Below are positions 39,422-58,451 of a stretch of 64,000 nucleotides of DNA, piece by piece. Origin of the DNA: Steroidobacteraceae bacterium (lineage in GTDB: Bacteria > Pseudomonadota > Gammaproteobacteria > Steroidobacterales > Steroidobacteraceae); the NCBI GenBank assembly GCA_017853555.1, contig JAFMJH010000001.1, forward strand, positions 124,001 through 188,000, in the 5' to 3' direction. The notes under the pieces were generated by a model that made no database searches, was not told the DNA's origin, and saw only the letters and a list, made by a program, of their open reading frames with translations. Position numbers and translations under genes: made by a program. Numbering within the stretch: position 1 is the stretch's first letter; every line of letters begins with the position of its first letter.

Positions 39422-42022
39422 TCAGAACTTGTAGCGTGCGGTGAGACCGAATTCGCGCAAGGTCGGATACGAGACGCTGTAGCGCCACGGGAAGAAGGTG
39501 CCGCGACCCGTGTTGCCGGCGGGCGTCGTGCCCGCCGGAGAACGGAAGAACGTGCCGTCCGGCAGCGCATTCGAGAAGAAGACGTCGCGATACGCGGCGC
39601 TCGGACTATCTTCGTTCGTCAGGTTGCGACCCCACAGCTCGATGGTCCACTGCTTCGATTGCAAACCGATCGCCATGTTGAGCTTGGTCTGATCGGGCGT
39701 GATGGCTTCATTCGTCGCATCGGCGAATTGCTTGTCGCGATACGACAGATCGCCGCGTACGAAAAACGCCTTGCCATCGGCAAGCGGCGCCGTGTAACCG
39801 AGGCTCGCCGCGAGCTGCCACGGCGACGTTCGCAGGATCTGCTTGCCTGAGACGTCACCGGTCGGCGAGAACGACGGGAAGCTCTTGAATGAGTCGACGC
39901 GCGCCTTGTCGTAGTTCGCATCGGTGTAGGACACGCCGAAACTGCCGTCGACGCGGTCGGTGATGCGCGCATTCACCGAGAACTCGGCGCCGCGGATGGT
40001 CGCGTCACCGGCGTTCACGTTGAATGCCGTCGGCGTACGAATGGTGCCGACGTTGCCCGAGCGCGGATCGACCACTTCCGTACGGATCTGCGGAATGACG
40101 ATGCTCTTCCACTTGCTCTGGTACACGTCGAAGTCGACGAAGACGCGTCGGTCGAGCAATTCGCTCTTGATGCCGAGCTCGAAGGCGCCGTTTTCTTCCG
40201 GGTCGAAGGCCGTGAGTATCGGCACGTTCACCGGTGTCGCGTCCGCGGTGAACTGCACGGTCGCCGCGCCGATGTTGCCGCTCTTTTCGGCGTGCGCGTA
40301 CGAACCGTAGATCGTGACGTTCGGCTGGGGTTTCCAGTCGAGCGTCGTACGCCAGTTGTTCAACCCCCAGGATTTGCTGCCCGTGCGCGCCGTCAAGATG
40401 TTGTTGAAGGATTTCTTTTCATCCGTGTAACGACCTTCGAGACGACCTTTGACGGTGTCCGTGAAGTCGTATTCCAGCGAGGCGAACGCCGAGGTGGCCG
40501 TGACCTTGTTGCGATAGGTGTCGCTGAAGATCGCGTCGCCGGTCGGATTGACGAACCAGTTTTTGAAGCCCGTCGTATCGACACCGCCGGTTGCCGCCGG
40601 ATCATTGGCCGGATCGTAAATCAACGTCGGCCGGCCGAACGGAGCCGCCGTACGGCAAGAGAGACAGAATGCGTAGAAATCGCTCGGCAACGGCTGCGTG
40701 GCCTTCACGCCGTCGTTACCGCCGTGCGACTTCGTATCGTAGAAGTAGCCGCCGACCGCCCAGCGCAGCTTTTGTTCGGTCTTGCTCGTGAGTCGCAGTT
40801 CAGTGCTCACTTCTTCCGTCACACCGCCACCGCCGATCTGGTAGAGCCCGGTACGCAACACTTTCTGTTCGCCACCGAAGAACGTGCCCGGCACCAGCGT
40901 CGCGAGACCCGTCGCCGGACGCGCGATGTAGACGAACGGCACGGTTTCACCCGTGTTGCGCGAACCGTCGACCAGGAATCCCTGACCGACTTTCGAGTAG
41001 CCCGTCAGAGAACTGATCGTACCGATGCCGGTATTCCAGGTGATGCTGAGGCTCGCACGCTCGATGTCGCGCTTGTTGCCCGTCGCCTGCGGCACTGCCG
41101 ACAGACCGTTGCGACCGACCGCCGGGAACGTACCGCAGTAGTTCATGTAGCCCGCGGCGGGCACCGGCGACTGCACGGTCAGCAGCGAGTTGAGATTTTC
41201 GCAGTTTGCAACCACGGGGCTGATCGCGGAATTGCCGACGACGTCATTCGAAATGTACGCCTGCAACTGCGCTTCGAACGCGTCGCTCGGCGTCCACAAC
41301 AACGTGCCTTGCGCCGACTGGTATTCGTAACCGCCGATATCCGACTTGCCGCCGGCACCGGAGTATTGATTGTTGTAGGAGCCGTCGAAGTTGTCATAGG
41401 AGACTGCGATGCGGCCTTTGAGCACGCCTTCGACGACCGGGCCGCTCACCGAACCGGCGAGCGCGCGCTTGCCGTTCGAGCCGAACTGCACTTCGGCTTT
41501 TCCTTTGACGACGTCGCCTGGTTTCGCGGTGACATAGTTGATGGCGCCGCTGAAGGAGTTGCGGCCGTACAAGGCTGCTTGCGGGCCTTTGATGACTTCG
41601 ATGCGCTCGAGGTCCGTCTGGTTGAAGTTCAAACCTTCTTTGCCGGAGACGAACACGCCATCGATGAACACCGCGGCATTGTTTTCACCACGCACGTCGA
41701 TGGGCGCAAAACCGCGGATGACGGGCACGGGGAGGAAGCCCGCCTGCACATCCGAGAAGGTGAGGCCGGGCGTCGCCGCCGCGACGTCGTCGAGATTGCG
41801 GATGCCTTTTTCTTCGATCTGTTCCGCCGAGAATGCCTTGATCGCGAGCGGGACGTCGAGCAAGCGCTCCTCCGCCTTGCGGGCGGTGACGACGATTTCT
41901 TCGAGTACGAGTCCGTCGCCCTGTGATTTGGTCTGTGCCAGCGCTGCACTCATGCTGGCCGCAGTGGCCAGCGTCGAGACGAGTGTGACGACGGAACGGA
42001 AATGCTTCTTGGAAGTGACCAT
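39422..42022 (-). CDS. TonB-dependent outer-membrane receptor
   Basis: An 866-residue receptor from ATG 42022 with a signal peptide (1-30, 'LATAASMSAALAQ'), a TonB-box-like 'LEEIVVTARK', and a plug domain ('LLDVPLAIKAFSAEQIEEKG', 'FIDGVFVSGKEG', 'IEVIKGPQAALYGRNSFSGA'). The 22-strand barrel ends 'REFGLTARYKF' with the terminal aromatic residue needed for barrel insertion. Two cysteine pairs ('CENLNSLL...YC' and 'FCLSC') lie in predicted outside loops. The subfamily is the large group common in Steroidobacter and sphingomonads, whose substrates vary from sugars to siderophores; no substrate call is possible from sequence. Downstream genes suggest haem or peptides. Confidence 0.92.
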   Translation of the reverse strand: MVTSKKHFRSVVTLVSTLATAASMSAALAQTKSQGDGLVLEEIVVTARKAEERLLDVPLAIKAFSAEQIEEKGIRNLDDVAAATPGLTFSDVQAGFLPVPVIRGFAPIDVRGENNAAVFIDGVFVSGKEGLNFNQTDLERIEVIKGPQAALYGRNSFSGAINYVTAKPGDVVKGKAEVQFGSNGKRALAGSVSGPVVEGVLKGRIAVSYDNFDGSYNNQYSGAGGKSDIGGYEYQSAQGTLLWTPSDAFEAQLQAYISNDVVGNSAISPVVANCENLNSLLTVQSPVPAAGYMNYCGTFPAVGRNGLSAVPQATGNKRDIERASLSITWNTGIGTISSLTGYSKVGQGFLVDGSRNTGETVPFVYIARPATGLATLVPGTFFGGEQKVLRTGLYQIGGGGVTEEVSTELRLTSKTEQKLRWAVGGYFYDTKSHGGNDGVKATQPLPSDFYAFCLSCRTAAPFGRPTLIYDPANDPAATGGVDTTGFKNWFVNPTGDAIFSDTYRNKVTATSAFASLEYDFTDTVKGRLEGRYTDEKKSFNNILTARTGSKSWGLNNWRTTLDWKPQPNVTIYGSYAHAEKSGNIGAATVQFTADATPVNVPILTAFDPEENGAFELGIKSELLDRRVFVDFDVYQSKWKSIVIPQIRTEVVDPRSGNVGTIRTPTAFNVNAGDATIRGAEFSVNARITDRVDGSFGVSYTDANYDKARVDSFKSFPSFSPTGDVSGKQILRTSPWQLAASLGYTAPLADGKAFFVRGDLSYRDKQFADATNEAITPDQTKLNMAIGLQSKQWTIELWGRNLTNEDSPSAAYRDVFFSNALPDGTFFRSPAGTTPAGNTGRGTFFPWRYSVSYPTLREFGLTARYKF

Positions 42023-42151: not shown

Positions 42152-43234
42152 ATGAGAATGATTCGCAATTTTTTGATCGCGGGCACGATGTCGTGGGTCG
42201 CCTGCATCGGGGCGATGGCCGCCCCCAAGCCGGCAGCCGCCGTGACGCCACCGGCCGGAGTCTCGATCACCACCCGCGAGGGGGAAATGCCCTCGTGGCT
42301 TATTCCCAACATCGGCGAAGCGGCCGAGTCCTATTACGGGCCCGACAGCGAGCACCTGATCGCGCAGGTCAAAAGCCCCCTCGCCGTCAAAAGTCCGCGG
42401 GGTCTCGCCGGTTTCCTGACCAAAACCTTCACGGATGCCGGCACCGACGTCGTGCTGATCAACGACAAAGGCTGGGATGCCTGCTCGTATTTCTTCCCCG
42501 ACGGCAAGCGGCTGATTTGGACCTCGATTCGGGACCATCTCGACATGCCGCTCGGCAACTGGTCCGACTGGCGCAACTACCCGCAAGGGTCCGAGTTGTA
42601 CGTGTCGGATCGCGAAGGCAAGAACGTGAAACGTCTGACGAACAACACGCAGTACGAAGCGGAAGTGACGGTCTCGCCCGACGGAAAGTGGATCGTCTTC
42701 GGTCGCATGACGCAGGGCAACATGGATCTGTGGATCATGAATTCCGACGGTACGGGCGAACGGCAGCTGACCTTCACGGAGGATGACCAGGAAGGTGCGC
42801 CGTATTTTCTGCCGGACAACGACACCATCATGTTCCGCGCATGGAAAGCTTCCGAATACGACATGAAGCCGACGCCGATGACCATCTACACCATCAAAAA
42901 AGATGGCAGCGATCGCAAAGAACGCACGTTCACGCACGACATGAACTGGGCGCCCTATCCGACGCCGGACGGCGAGCACTTCCTGTTCGTGCGCGCCGAG
43001 ACGCCGCGCAATTGGGAGGTGTATCTCGGCTATCTCGACGGCAAGACGCCGCCGAAGCGCATCACCTTCGACGAAGGGTTCGACGGCTTCCCGGCGATTT
43101 CACCCGACGGTCGCAAGATGGTGTGGACCAGCTCGCGCAGCGCAGGCCCCGGCGTGGGCTTCATGCAAGGGCTGCAGCTGCACGTCATGGATGTGACGGC
43201 ACTCGGTCTCGGTCCCAAAAAGCACCAGCATTGA
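42152..43234 (+). CDS. Exported TolB-like beta-propeller (PD40) protein
   Basis: A 360-residue periplasmic protein from ATG 42152, with GGGG upstream. A signal peptide covers residues 1-25 ('FLIAGTMSWVACIGAMA'). The rest is a beta-propeller of PD40/WD40-like blades ('VTVSPDGKWIVFGRMTQGNM', 'SDGTGERQLTFTEDDQEGAP', 'AISPDGRKMVWTSSRSAG'). It is related to the TolB propeller but lacks its N-terminal domain. It is divergent from the TonB receptor across 129 bases and sits 25 bases before the amidase-fold gene, so it may serve as a periplasmic binding or scaffold protein for both. Confidence 0.85.
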   Translation: MRMIRNFLIAGTMSWVACIGAMAAPKPAAAVTPPAGVSITTREGEMPSWLIPNIGEAAESYYGPDSEHLIAQVKSPLAVKSPRGLAGFLTKTFTDAGTDVVLINDKGWDACSYFFPDGKRLIWTSIRDHLDMPLGNWSDWRNYPQGSELYVSDREGKNVKRLTNNTQYEAEVTVSPDGKWIVFGRMTQGNMDLWIMNSDGTGERQLTFTEDDQEGAPYFLPDNDTIMFRAWKASEYDMKPTPMTIYTIKKDGSDRKERTFTHDMNWAPYPTPDGEHFLFVRAETPRNWEVYLGYLDGKTPPKRITFDEGFDGFPAISPDGRKMVWTSSRSAGPGVGFMQGLQLHVMDVTALGLGPKKHQH

Positions 43235-43259: not shown

Positions 43260-44435
43260 ATGAAAAAATCTTCGAAACTCGACCGTCGGCAATTGCTCAC
43301 CGGTGCCGCTGCCGTGGGCGTCGCGGCGGCGGCTGCAGCGCCGGACAAGGCCTCGGCCGTCACGCCCGCGGTCACGCCCGTCGGAGTGTCGAAGCGCGGC
43401 AGCTACGAAACCGTCGCGCTGCGTCAGGAGACGATCAACGTTGCGGCCATCCAATCGCGCCTGATGTCGATCGACTTGCGCGACAAGGCGAAGACCACCA
43501 AGCGCAACCTCGATCGCGTGCTGCGCCTCGTCGATCTGGCGCAAAACTCGCCGGAAGAATGGAACTACGAACGCCGCTGGGGATCGAAAGTCGATCTGAT
43601 CTGCATGCACGAATTTCCGGTGCAGGGCTTTCAGCCCTGGAATCGCAAAGAATTGAATCAGATCGCCTTCGAGCTGCCGGGGCCCGAAGTCAACGCCATC
43701 GCCGAGCGCGCCAAACGCTACGGTTGCTACATCTCTTTCGGTTGTTACGCCAAAGAAAAAGATTGGCCGGATCACGTCATCAACATGTCGGTGATCGTCG
43801 GCCCCGAAGGCAACATCGTCAGCAAGCAATGGAAGGCGCGCAATATTCTCGGCATGTTCGGTGACGGCGCATTGATCGGCACGACCATCTACGACGTGCT
43901 CGATCGCTACGTCGAGATGTACGGCTGGGAAGCCACCATGCCGGTGGCGCGCACCGACATCGGCAACATCGCCGTCACGGCGGTGGGCAACGAGCCGCTG
44001 CTGTACACCTGCCTCGGCTTGAAGGGCGCGGAGATTCTGGTGTTGTCGGTCACGGGCGGCAGCAACGCCGAATCGGCGATCAACGCCGCGCGGCAAGGCC
44101 GCCTCTATACGGTCGGCGTCGGCAATTCCGTGTCACCGGACAACATCGGCTTCGCCGAAGGTTCGGGTACGCGCGATGAAGGCACGGTGATCGTCGACCC
44201 GCGCGGCACGGTGCTCGGCAAGACGGAAAACCATCACGAAGAAATCGTGCGTGCCCAAATCCCGATCTCGAGCTACCGCAAGACGCGCCGCGTGCAGGAA
44301 CTGCCGATGGCTTTGTTCCTGCCCGTGTTGCAGCAGTACCAACCGGTGTTCGGCCCGAACGCGTTCCTCGACAAGCTGCCTGCGAACTACCAGGAAGCTG
44401 GCGAAATCGTACGCAAGCGCATGGCCATGAAATGA
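43260..44435 (+). CDS. Tat-exported aliphatic-amidase-like protein with Cys nucleophile replaced
   Basis: A 391-residue member of the carbon-nitrogen hydrolase fold. A twin-arginine signal ('LDRRQLLTGAAAVGVAAAAA') predicts export. The fold matches the AmiE group: a glutamate in 'LICMHEFPVQGF' near 118 and a lysine in 'SKQWKARNILG' near 190. At the nucleophile elbow, where AmiE reads CDDGNYP, this protein reads 'TAVGNEP' (near 240): the G-N-x-P frame aligns, so Cys becomes Thr. Downstream 'CLGLKGAEILV' and 'DPRGTVLGKT' continue the fold. It may be a pseudoenzyme or use another mechanism. It is co-oriented with and just downstream of the propeller gene. Confidence 0.85.
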   Translation: MKKSSKLDRRQLLTGAAAVGVAAAAAAPDKASAVTPAVTPVGVSKRGSYETVALRQETINVAAIQSRLMSIDLRDKAKTTKRNLDRVLRLVDLAQNSPEEWNYERRWGSKVDLICMHEFPVQGFQPWNRKELNQIAFELPGPEVNAIAERAKRYGCYISFGCYAKEKDWPDHVINMSVIVGPEGNIVSKQWKARNILGMFGDGALIGTTIYDVLDRYVEMYGWEATMPVARTDIGNIAVTAVGNEPLLYTCLGLKGAEILVLSVTGGSNAESAINAARQGRLYTVGVGNSVSPDNIGFAEGSGTRDEGTVIVDPRGTVLGKTENHHEEIVRAQIPISSYRKTRRVQELPMALFLPVLQQYQPVFGPNAFLDKLPANYQEAGEIVRKRMAMK

Positions 44436-44505: not shown

Positions 44506-44514
44506 TAGTTGTCC

Positions 44515-45006
44515 ATGAACGAGATCGTCGCGACCGGCGCCGCCGCCACCGCCCTTGCCACCTTGTTGCCGAAGGTGGGCACCGAAGTTCATGTGAGCGA
44601 CTGGCTCACCGTCACCCAAAGCCGTATCGCCGCATTCGCCGATGCCACGGGTGACCCGCAGTGGATCCACATCGATGCGGAACGTGCGCGCCGCGAGTCA
44701 CCGTATGGCGCACCGATCGCGCACGGCTATCTGACGCTCTCGCTGCACACCATGTTGCGCGGCCTGGTGTCAGCCGATACGCCGGTCGCACCGGGCGTCA
44801 AAAACGTCATCAACTACGGCCTCAACAAAGCGCGCTTCCCGAATGCGGTACGCGTCGACTCGCGCATCCGCGGCCGCTTCACGCTGGTAAAAGTCGAGGC
44901 GGTCGCGCCGAACGCGCTGCAAATCACCGAGCAATACACCGCCGAGATCGACGGTCAGCCGAAGCCCGGCTGCATTGCCGAAGGCGTCATGCGACTGATG
45001 TTTTGA
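44515..45006 (+). CDS. MaoC-family (R)-specific enoyl-CoA hydratase-like protein
   Basis: A 163-residue hot-dog-fold protein with the hydratase motif 'FADATGDPQWIHIDAERARR' (the D and H of the catalytic pair, near residues 45-53) and 'PYGAPIAHGYLTLSLHTML' near 68-86. Members hydrate trans-2-enoyl-CoA to (R)-3-hydroxyacyl-CoA in polyester, beta-oxidation or other acyl-CoA pathways. The ATG at 44515 is preferred to the TTG two codons upstream in the track. Its ribosome binding site lies inside an extended inverted repeat. Its stop is 17 bases before the dehydrogenase ATG, suggesting co-transcription. Confidence 0.9.
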   Translation: MNEIVATGAAATALATLLPKVGTEVHVSDWLTVTQSRIAAFADATGDPQWIHIDAERARRESPYGAPIAHGYLTLSLHTMLRGLVSADTPVAPGVKNVINYGLNKARFPNAVRVDSRIRGRFTLVKVEAVAPNALQITEQYTAEIDGQPKPGCIAEGVMRLMF

Positions 45007-57524: not shown

Positions 57525-58451
57525 ATGTCTAACCATACGTTTTCACGGCTCGCGCTCACCGCCGCGCTGATGCTCGCCACGCCGCTCGCCGCCTGGGGTG
57601 CCGACGATTTTCTGGGCCCCTCGGCCAAGCGCGAAGGCGCCGAGGCCTTCACCTGGAACATGAAACTCACTTGCGGCACGACCGAGCCCGGCGTCACGCG
57701 CTACGGCATGTGGGAAGGGCGCATGTACAGCCGCATCGCCGGCGAAAAGGATCGCCACATCTTCGACGTGATCGGCATCAACACGCGGCAGTGCGAACGC
57801 CACAAGGATCCGGTCCGCGGTGACGGCTACCGCTCGGTGTCGCGCGAGATCATGGTGTACCTCGACCCCGCGAGCGGTGAAATCATCGACCGCTGGAAGA
57901 ACCCGTGGACGGGGCAAACCGTCGACGTCGTCCACGTCGCCAACGATCCGGTGAACATGCGACAGCCGAGCTTCGCCATCGGCGCCGACGGCAAGCCCGC
58001 TTCGATCGAGTTGCGGCAGTACGACGACCTGCTGGTCGAAGTGCGCGAAGTGCCGCTGTTCTACACGAACCCGCTGGCCGGCGATTATCAGGAATACGTC
58101 GGCGGGCAGTACCACGCGATGGAGATCTTCAACACGTTCTATCGCGCCGCCGACTTCACCGATGCCAAGAAGAACCGGATCAGCGAATCGCGGATCTCCT
58201 GGCAACGCATCTCGAAGTTGCTGCCGTGGATGCTGATGGGCGACCGGCAGGGAATCATGATCTTCAACGCGACCGGCTACAGCACCTTCGACCGCAAGAG
58301 AATCCCGCCGAAGCTCATGCAAATCCTGCAGACTCGCTACCCGCAATATCTCGAAGCCCCGCCGCTCGGCGATCCGCGACCGAACGCGACCACGTGGACG
58401 GTCACCAAGCAATGGATCGACGCGCAGCGCGCCAAACAGGAGAAGAAGTGA
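57525..58451 (+). CDS. Exported DUF1838-family protein
   Basis: A 308-residue exported protein. The signal peptide is 'LALTAALMLATPLAAWGA'. The mature part matches the DUF1838 pattern: 'MWEGRMYSRIAGEKDRHIFD', a strand with 'VSREIMVYLDPASGEIIDRW', 'NPWTGQTVDVVHVANDPVN' and, near residue 225, 'SRISWQRISKLLPWMLMGD'. Function is unknown for the family. It is the first gene of a three-gene operon with DUF1993 and an aldo/keto reductase, under a divergent LysR regulator. Confidence 0.85.
   Translation: MSNHTFSRLALTAALMLATPLAAWGADDFLGPSAKREGAEAFTWNMKLTCGTTEPGVTRYGMWEGRMYSRIAGEKDRHIFDVIGINTRQCERHKDPVRGDGYRSVSREIMVYLDPASGEIIDRWKNPWTGQTVDVVHVANDPVNMRQPSFAIGADGKPASIELRQYDDLLVEVREVPLFYTNPLAGDYQEYVGGQYHAMEIFNTFYRAADFTDAKKNRISESRISWQRISKLLPWMLMGDRQGIMIFNATGYSTFDRKRIPPKLMQILQTRYPQYLEAPPLGDPRPNATTWTVTKQWIDAQRAKQEKK

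Follow-up and report, generated by a model that had tools for sequence, protein, structure and literature searches.

Members of the nitrilase superfamily are known by a catalytic triad built from glutamate, lysine, and cysteine. What, then, is to be expected of a protein that has the nitrilase fold, the glutamate, and the lysine, and no cysteine where the nucleophile should be? This question is raised by a gene in a stretch of 64,000 nucleotides (the window) from the genome of a Steroidobacteraceae bacterium. An earlier note, made from the sequence alone, had described the product of this gene as an exported, aliphatic-amidase-like protein whose catalytic cysteine had become a threonine, and had offered a pseudoenzyme, a binding protein, or an enzyme with a different mechanism as explanations. 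The core of that idea, an exported nitrilase fold without a thiol nucleophile, survives the tests described here, and it now applies to a whole conserved family. Its details (the threonine, the amidase, and the connection to TonB) fare less well.

The protein belongs to a branch of the nitrilase (CN_hydrolase) fold that has no cysteine, and is predicted to be exported by the Tat pathway. Our preferred reading, to which we give a probability of roughly 0.45, is that it may be an enzyme that works without a thiol acyl-enzyme. A Cys-less clade that keeps the glutamate and the lysine is, of course, a natural test of the rest of the nitrilase site. Its members either bind without cutting or use chemistry not yet described for this fold; PF00795 alone would label them hydrolases. 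The features of the locus are collected in Table 1.

Table 1. Features of the locus, numbered by position in the window.
Feature	Position	Strand	Evidence
Cys-less CN_hydrolase (nitrilase-fold) protein	43260..44435	+	Open reading frame and translation; PF00795, 4.9e-14; Foldseek
Twin-arginine motif region DRRQLLTG, residues 8-15	43281..43304	+	Direct sequence
Glu118, triad Glu, in HEFP	43611..43613	+	E in 63/64 family rows and 65/65 Cys-bearing rows
Lys192, triad Lys, in WKARN	43833..43835	+	K in 63/64 family rows and 60/65 Cys-bearing rows
Asp215, candidate second acidic nitrilase residue	43902..43904	+	D/E in 62/64 family rows; HMM-aligned to the Glu of 'ER' in NIT4
Thr240-Ala-Val242, closing the strand that leads into the elbow; Val242 in the Cys column	43977..43985	+	Profile alignment, column counts
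Glu245-Pro246 of the shortened elbow	43992..43997	+	E/D/Q at 245 in 64/64 family rows, P at 246 in 62/64
PD40 beta-propeller, exported, co-oriented neighbour	42152..43234	+	PF07676, 6.1e-31; kept in part of the genus
TonB-dependent receptor, divergent neighbour	39422..42022	-	PF00593 and PF07715; start by inspection
MaoC-like dehydratase, downstream neighbour in the genus	44509..45006	+	PF01575, 2.2e-21; synteny
DUF1838 protein	57525..58451	+	PF08894, 9.2e-63

The open reading frame encodes 391 amino acids, beginning with MKKSSKLDRRQLLTGAAAVG. By inspection, the start of the protein (MKKSSKLDRRQLLTGAAAVGVAAAAAAPDKASA) is a twin-arginine signal, as the earlier note had held. The motif is followed by a hydrophobic stretch (DRRQLLTGAAAVGVAAAAAA), at least 90% of the 24 relatives aligned share the R9-R10 pair, and export is predicted from these features. 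Pfam finds one domain in the chain, CN_hydrolase, at residues 61-344, with 52.7 bits against a cut-off of 23.2. Assignment to a named enzyme is another matter. The NCBIfam equivalogs for the aliphatic amidase AmiE (NF009802; 19.8 bits, cut-off 427) and the formamidase AmiF (NF009803; 25.4 bits, cut-off 406) are not reached. The single 391-residue sequence found no match in the PDB, nor did a search of viral contigs find relatives. A profile of 24 relatives, run against the PDB, matched aliphatic amidases best (1.9e-10), followed by the plant nitrilase NIT4 and formamidases. By the NCBIfam cut-offs, the protein is not an aliphatic amidase in particular.

Structure prediction gives the same answer. 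AlphaFold2, run with a shallow alignment of related loci, returned a full-length model with a mean pLDDT of 58.9 and a pTM of 0.65, and a model of residues 50-391 with a mean pLDDT of 59.8. At a mean pLDDT of only 59, AlphaFold2 and Foldseek together still give the alpha-beta-beta-alpha fold, with formamidases and amidases as the best Foldseek matches (best E 1.9e-16, probability 1.00). Alignment to PF00795 and modelling of the fold had been proposed in the earlier note as a check; both find the CN_hydrolase fold, and we regard the assignment as sound. The models give the fold and not the elbow. In both, the elbow and an insertion around residues 193-234 lie mostly below a pLDDT of 50, and no residue-level geometry is therefore claimed. 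The fold is that of AmiE (PDB 2uxy, 4gyl) and AmiF (2dyu, 5g3o), with the glutamate and the lysine aligned. The protein differs from these enzymes in lacking the cysteine, in having an elbow shorter by two residues and extra residues between Lys192 and Asp215, and in carrying a Tat signal.

Is the missing cysteine a peculiarity of one protein? A set of 138 CN-hydrolase rows, each of at least 220 residues, was drawn from the same genome and its relatives and aligned by an iterated profile, seeded with a Cys-bearing protein of that genome (L003). Sorted by elbow length, these gave 64 short-elbow rows, here called the family, and 74 others. In the Cys column, the family has 50 Val, 7 Thr, 3 Met, 2 Cys, 1 Ser, and 1 Ala; the others have 65 Cys, 7 Ser, and 2 Ala. 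The cysteine is absent from 62 of 64 family rows, against 9 of the 74 other CN hydrolases surveyed, which is more than chance. Loss of the canonical cysteine is thus borne out, for the family as well as for the protein.

The change from cysteine to threonine is not. The earlier note had matched TAVGNEP to CDDGNYP without a gap, and this match hides one. The stretch that runs from GNIA to KGAE has two residues fewer than in canonical enzymes, and the Cys column of the general CN-hydrolase profile falls on Val242, with Thr240 two residues upstream. The gap, together with valine in the Cys column, rules out a simple point change from Cys to Thr. An HMM alignment to NIT4 (PDB 6i00), which sets LDRYVEMYG...PVARTDIGNIA here against LERCIWGFG...PVFDTPIGKIG there, likewise places Val242 opposite the Cys of ICWEN, with the two-residue gap following. 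Column 238 supports the same register; its small residue is Gly or Ala in Cys-bearing rows and mostly Ala, Ser, or Cys in the family. Only anchoring on the downstream proline (Pro246) brings Thr240 to the Cys position. In either register, the nucleophile position holds no cysteine. The "Gly-Asn-x-Pro frame" that the earlier note saw as kept is coincidental, as orthologues have A, N, L, S, I, M, or G at residue 244; residue 243, moreover, is Gln in 24 of 32 paralogues.

One might, of course, blame the alignment, and hold that Cys251, Cys156, or Cys162 is the nucleophile of an ordinary thiol amidase. Cys156 is invariant and Cys251 common among orthologues, and the low confidence of the elbow in both models leaves room for such a view. 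Across the family, however, none of the three is invariant. Cys156 is replaced by Thr or Ser in 8 of 32 paralogues, and Cys162 by Ala in 4 orthologues and mostly by Thr, Ser, or Ala in paralogues. Cys251, the cysteine of "CLGLKG" whose placement at the elbow the earlier note had named as fatal to its claim, gives way to Ala in 4 of 32 orthologues and in 22 of 32 paralogues, and was rejected as the nucleophile. We consider a hidden cysteine very improbable.

On a tree of 114 rows, the short-elbow rows (53 of them kept) form one clade, with support of 100/100 and a stem of 1.09 changes per column. This tree was built on all 292 columns, the elbow included, although the elbow is a small part of these. 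Among the nearest Cys-bearing relatives is L003, which has in common with the Cys-less protein a DVxDxYVxxYG motif before the elbow, but keeps the long elbow and the cysteine, in CLVCYDVNFPE. The nine Cys-less rows outside the family fall into two small clades, separate from it and with elbows of normal length. The tree implies that the cysteine has been lost at least three times.

These smaller clades have features of their own. The Ser-type clade (ASEEILYPE) comprises L005, from the same genome (contig C51, 46513-47460, minus strand; IASEEILYPE), with L062, L063, L148, L155, L156, and L162; arginine replaces the catalytic lysine in all seven. The Ala-type clade, L004 (contig C5 of the same genome) and L145, reads IAYDIFWPE or IAWDAQFPE and lies beside the Cys-bearing L003 type. 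Inside the family, two rows from one genus (L035 and L065) have a cysteine in the canonical column (SPCKMEPE), on an elbow that is still short; they are nested in the clade, and the cysteine has perhaps been regained. The second domain of L141 is a divergent family row on a long branch. For the Cys-less clade, we found no named family in NCBIfam, no solved structure in the PDB, and no paper in the open literature; open papers likewise contained nothing relevant on Cys-less nitrilases.

A gene that has lost its nucleophile might simply be decaying under relaxed selection, its function gone. Such a gene would not be expected to remain open in orthologues from 19 of the 23 other genomes of the genus and from several other genera. 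The view is refuted by estimates of selection. Over the mature part, pairwise dN is 0.04-0.22 against a dS of 0.77-1.44, giving a dN/dS of about 0.05-0.22; the higher dS values are near saturation, and the conclusion does not depend on them. The elbow is similarly constrained. The gene is under purifying selection, and decay is scarcely credible.

The pocket shows the same constraint. Glu118 and Lys192 stand as the catalytic glutamate and lysine of the superfamily, as the earlier note had claimed, each in all but one of the family rows. From its alignment, Asp215 is a candidate for the second acidic residue. D112, P120, W169, H172, W191, E327, and R340 are invariant in all 64 family rows and variable in Cys-bearing rows, and N195 is present in 63. 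Other positions are looser, which counts against an enzyme: Asn replaces His117 in 6 rows, and conservation of Glu219 is incomplete. From the strand order of the fold, His172 and Trp191 would line the edge of the active site. A freely decaying pocket would not keep Glu118, Lys192, an acid at 215, and the invariant residues, from which we infer that the pocket is still in use. The clade belongs to the CN_hydrolase fold, but lacks the complete triad by which nitrilase catalysis is defined, with Val242 in the Cys column of an elbow two residues short.

In use for what? If the protein is an enzyme, Glu118 would be a general base, acting either on water or on the conserved Ser/Thr240 hydroxyl. Lys192 would stabilise the oxyanion, and the family-specific His172, Trp169, and Trp191, with the acidic residue at 245, would shape the altered site. 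The setting would be an uptake-and-breakdown route for nitrogen-containing compounds, periplasmic for this protein and cytoplasmic for other members. The broader proposal, that the family as a whole catalyses without a thiol, with Glu and Lys kept, the elbow rebuilt, and water or a Ser/Thr hydroxyl standing in for Cys in a DUF1838-linked periplasmic breakdown, is more tentative, and we would put it short of an even chance. The earlier note had suggested examining orthologues for the threonine. Here the outcome is mixed: 59 of the 64 family rows have Ser or Thr at residue 240, but the remaining 5 have Gly or Leu, so Thr240 cannot be a universal nucleophile. Against the enzyme, it must also be said that profile alignments put Thr240 on the wrong side of the gap for the Cys position.

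The same pocket might have a different use. A pseudoenzyme might rely on its Glu and Lys to grip a periplasmic ligand, amide- or carboxylate-like, for delivery to transporters or partner enzymes. By analogy, it would be the natural equivalent of the C-to-A mutants that are used to trap substrates. The titles of PDB entries 6ypa and 8hpc indicate that such mutants of the fold hold bound amides or substrate, which fits a binder equally well. So do the Val, Thr, Met, Ser, or Ala that fill the Cys column, the Tat signal, and, within the genus, the adjacent genes for a TonB receptor and a PD40 protein. Many members, however, have no export signal (L002 and L073 among them) and sit among catabolic genes, and the invariant family-specific residues go beyond those obviously needed for binding. 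Two things lead us to prefer the enzyme to the binder: hardly any member has lost the Glu or the Lys, and the paralogues, some of which have no export signal, are found dispersed among genes for transport and catabolism. The binder is nonetheless a real possibility, if one that we would not bet on.

The genes beside the paralogues include oligopeptide ABC components (L073), kynureninase with a cyclase-family gene (L072), and MFS carriers (L100); L065, L067, and L068 adjoin DUF1838 genes. As these contexts vary, they imply no substrate. They do bear on a further proposal, that the Cys-less protein is a structural or regulatory subunit in a mixed oligomer with an active, Cys-bearing CN hydrolase. 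NIT4A and NIT4B2 have been described as forming a heteromeric nitrilase (PMC5154151), and the same genomes hold several Cys-bearing paralogues. Yet no Cys-bearing CN hydrolase adjoins the gene in the loci fetched, the Tat signal would part the protein from cytoplasmic CN hydrolases, and a scaffold need not keep the Glu, the Lys, and the residues of the pocket. We consider such a subunit unlikely.

Where is the family found? With an E-value limit of 1e-25, it is in 39 of 98 relatives, including 21 of the 24 genomes of the genus (one genome, G017, has paralogues only). Farther out it is rare. Samples of 276 genomes across the class and 398 across the phylum gave matches in 3 genomes each, with the source genome counted in both; at 1e-20, one of these matches is of the Ser type and is not a family member.

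The gene is co-oriented with the beta-propeller gene and divergent from the TonB receptor gene, just as the earlier note had reported. Within the genus, the order often kept is the divergent TonB receptor, sometimes the PD40 gene, the Cys-less gene, the MaoC gene, a dehydrogenase-like gene, and an RND pump. Around more distant orthologues this neighbourhood is absent and the adjoining genes are different. As the genome of 2.48 Mb also has 32 TonB plug domains, the connection to TonB is a weak clue to function. A text search of the open literature for the combination of Tat, TonB, and CN hydrolase found nothing.

The distribution of DUF1838 (PF08894), a family of unknown function, is more closely matched. 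DUF1838 is present in 45 of the 98 relatives; 39 have both families, none has the Cys-less family alone, 6 have DUF1838 only, and 53 have neither (Fisher 2e-21). The same division is 18/0/3/53 outside the genus (2e-14) and 14/0/2/29 when counted by genus (7e-10), although these p-values serve as guides, since the test takes no account of common descent and the searches were run at different thresholds. A control family, PF04199, showed no association in the same test (p = 1.0). In genus g15, one genome (G056) has both families and another (G037) has neither. The Ser-type branch gives the same counts against DUF1838 and never occurs without it.

Proximity is occasional. The Cys-less gene lies 45 bases from DUF1838 in G083 and G094 and 232 in G084; most copies are not adjacent. 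The Cys-less family, DUF1838, and the context of the Ser-type genes together suggest that nitrogen-containing compounds are broken down by a shared route. The DUF1838 pattern would also arise from a common way of life, with no direct functional link. As DUF1838 is always present with the Cys-less family, a phenotype or substrate found for one should inform the other. The open literature contained nothing on DUF1838 in a setting with a Cys-less nitrilase fold.

Both DUF1838, with 17 matches, and the TonB plug domain, with 32, are strikingly expanded in the source genome. In G091, which is without the Cys-less family, only a DUF1330 gene separates the Ser-type gene from DUF1838. This region, L175 on contig C21 of that genome, also has an isochorismatase-type hydrolase, polysaccharide-deacetylase-type genes, a TonB-like gene, an MFS gene, and an amine oxidase. 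At L183, too, a DUF1330 gene comes before the Ser-type gene.
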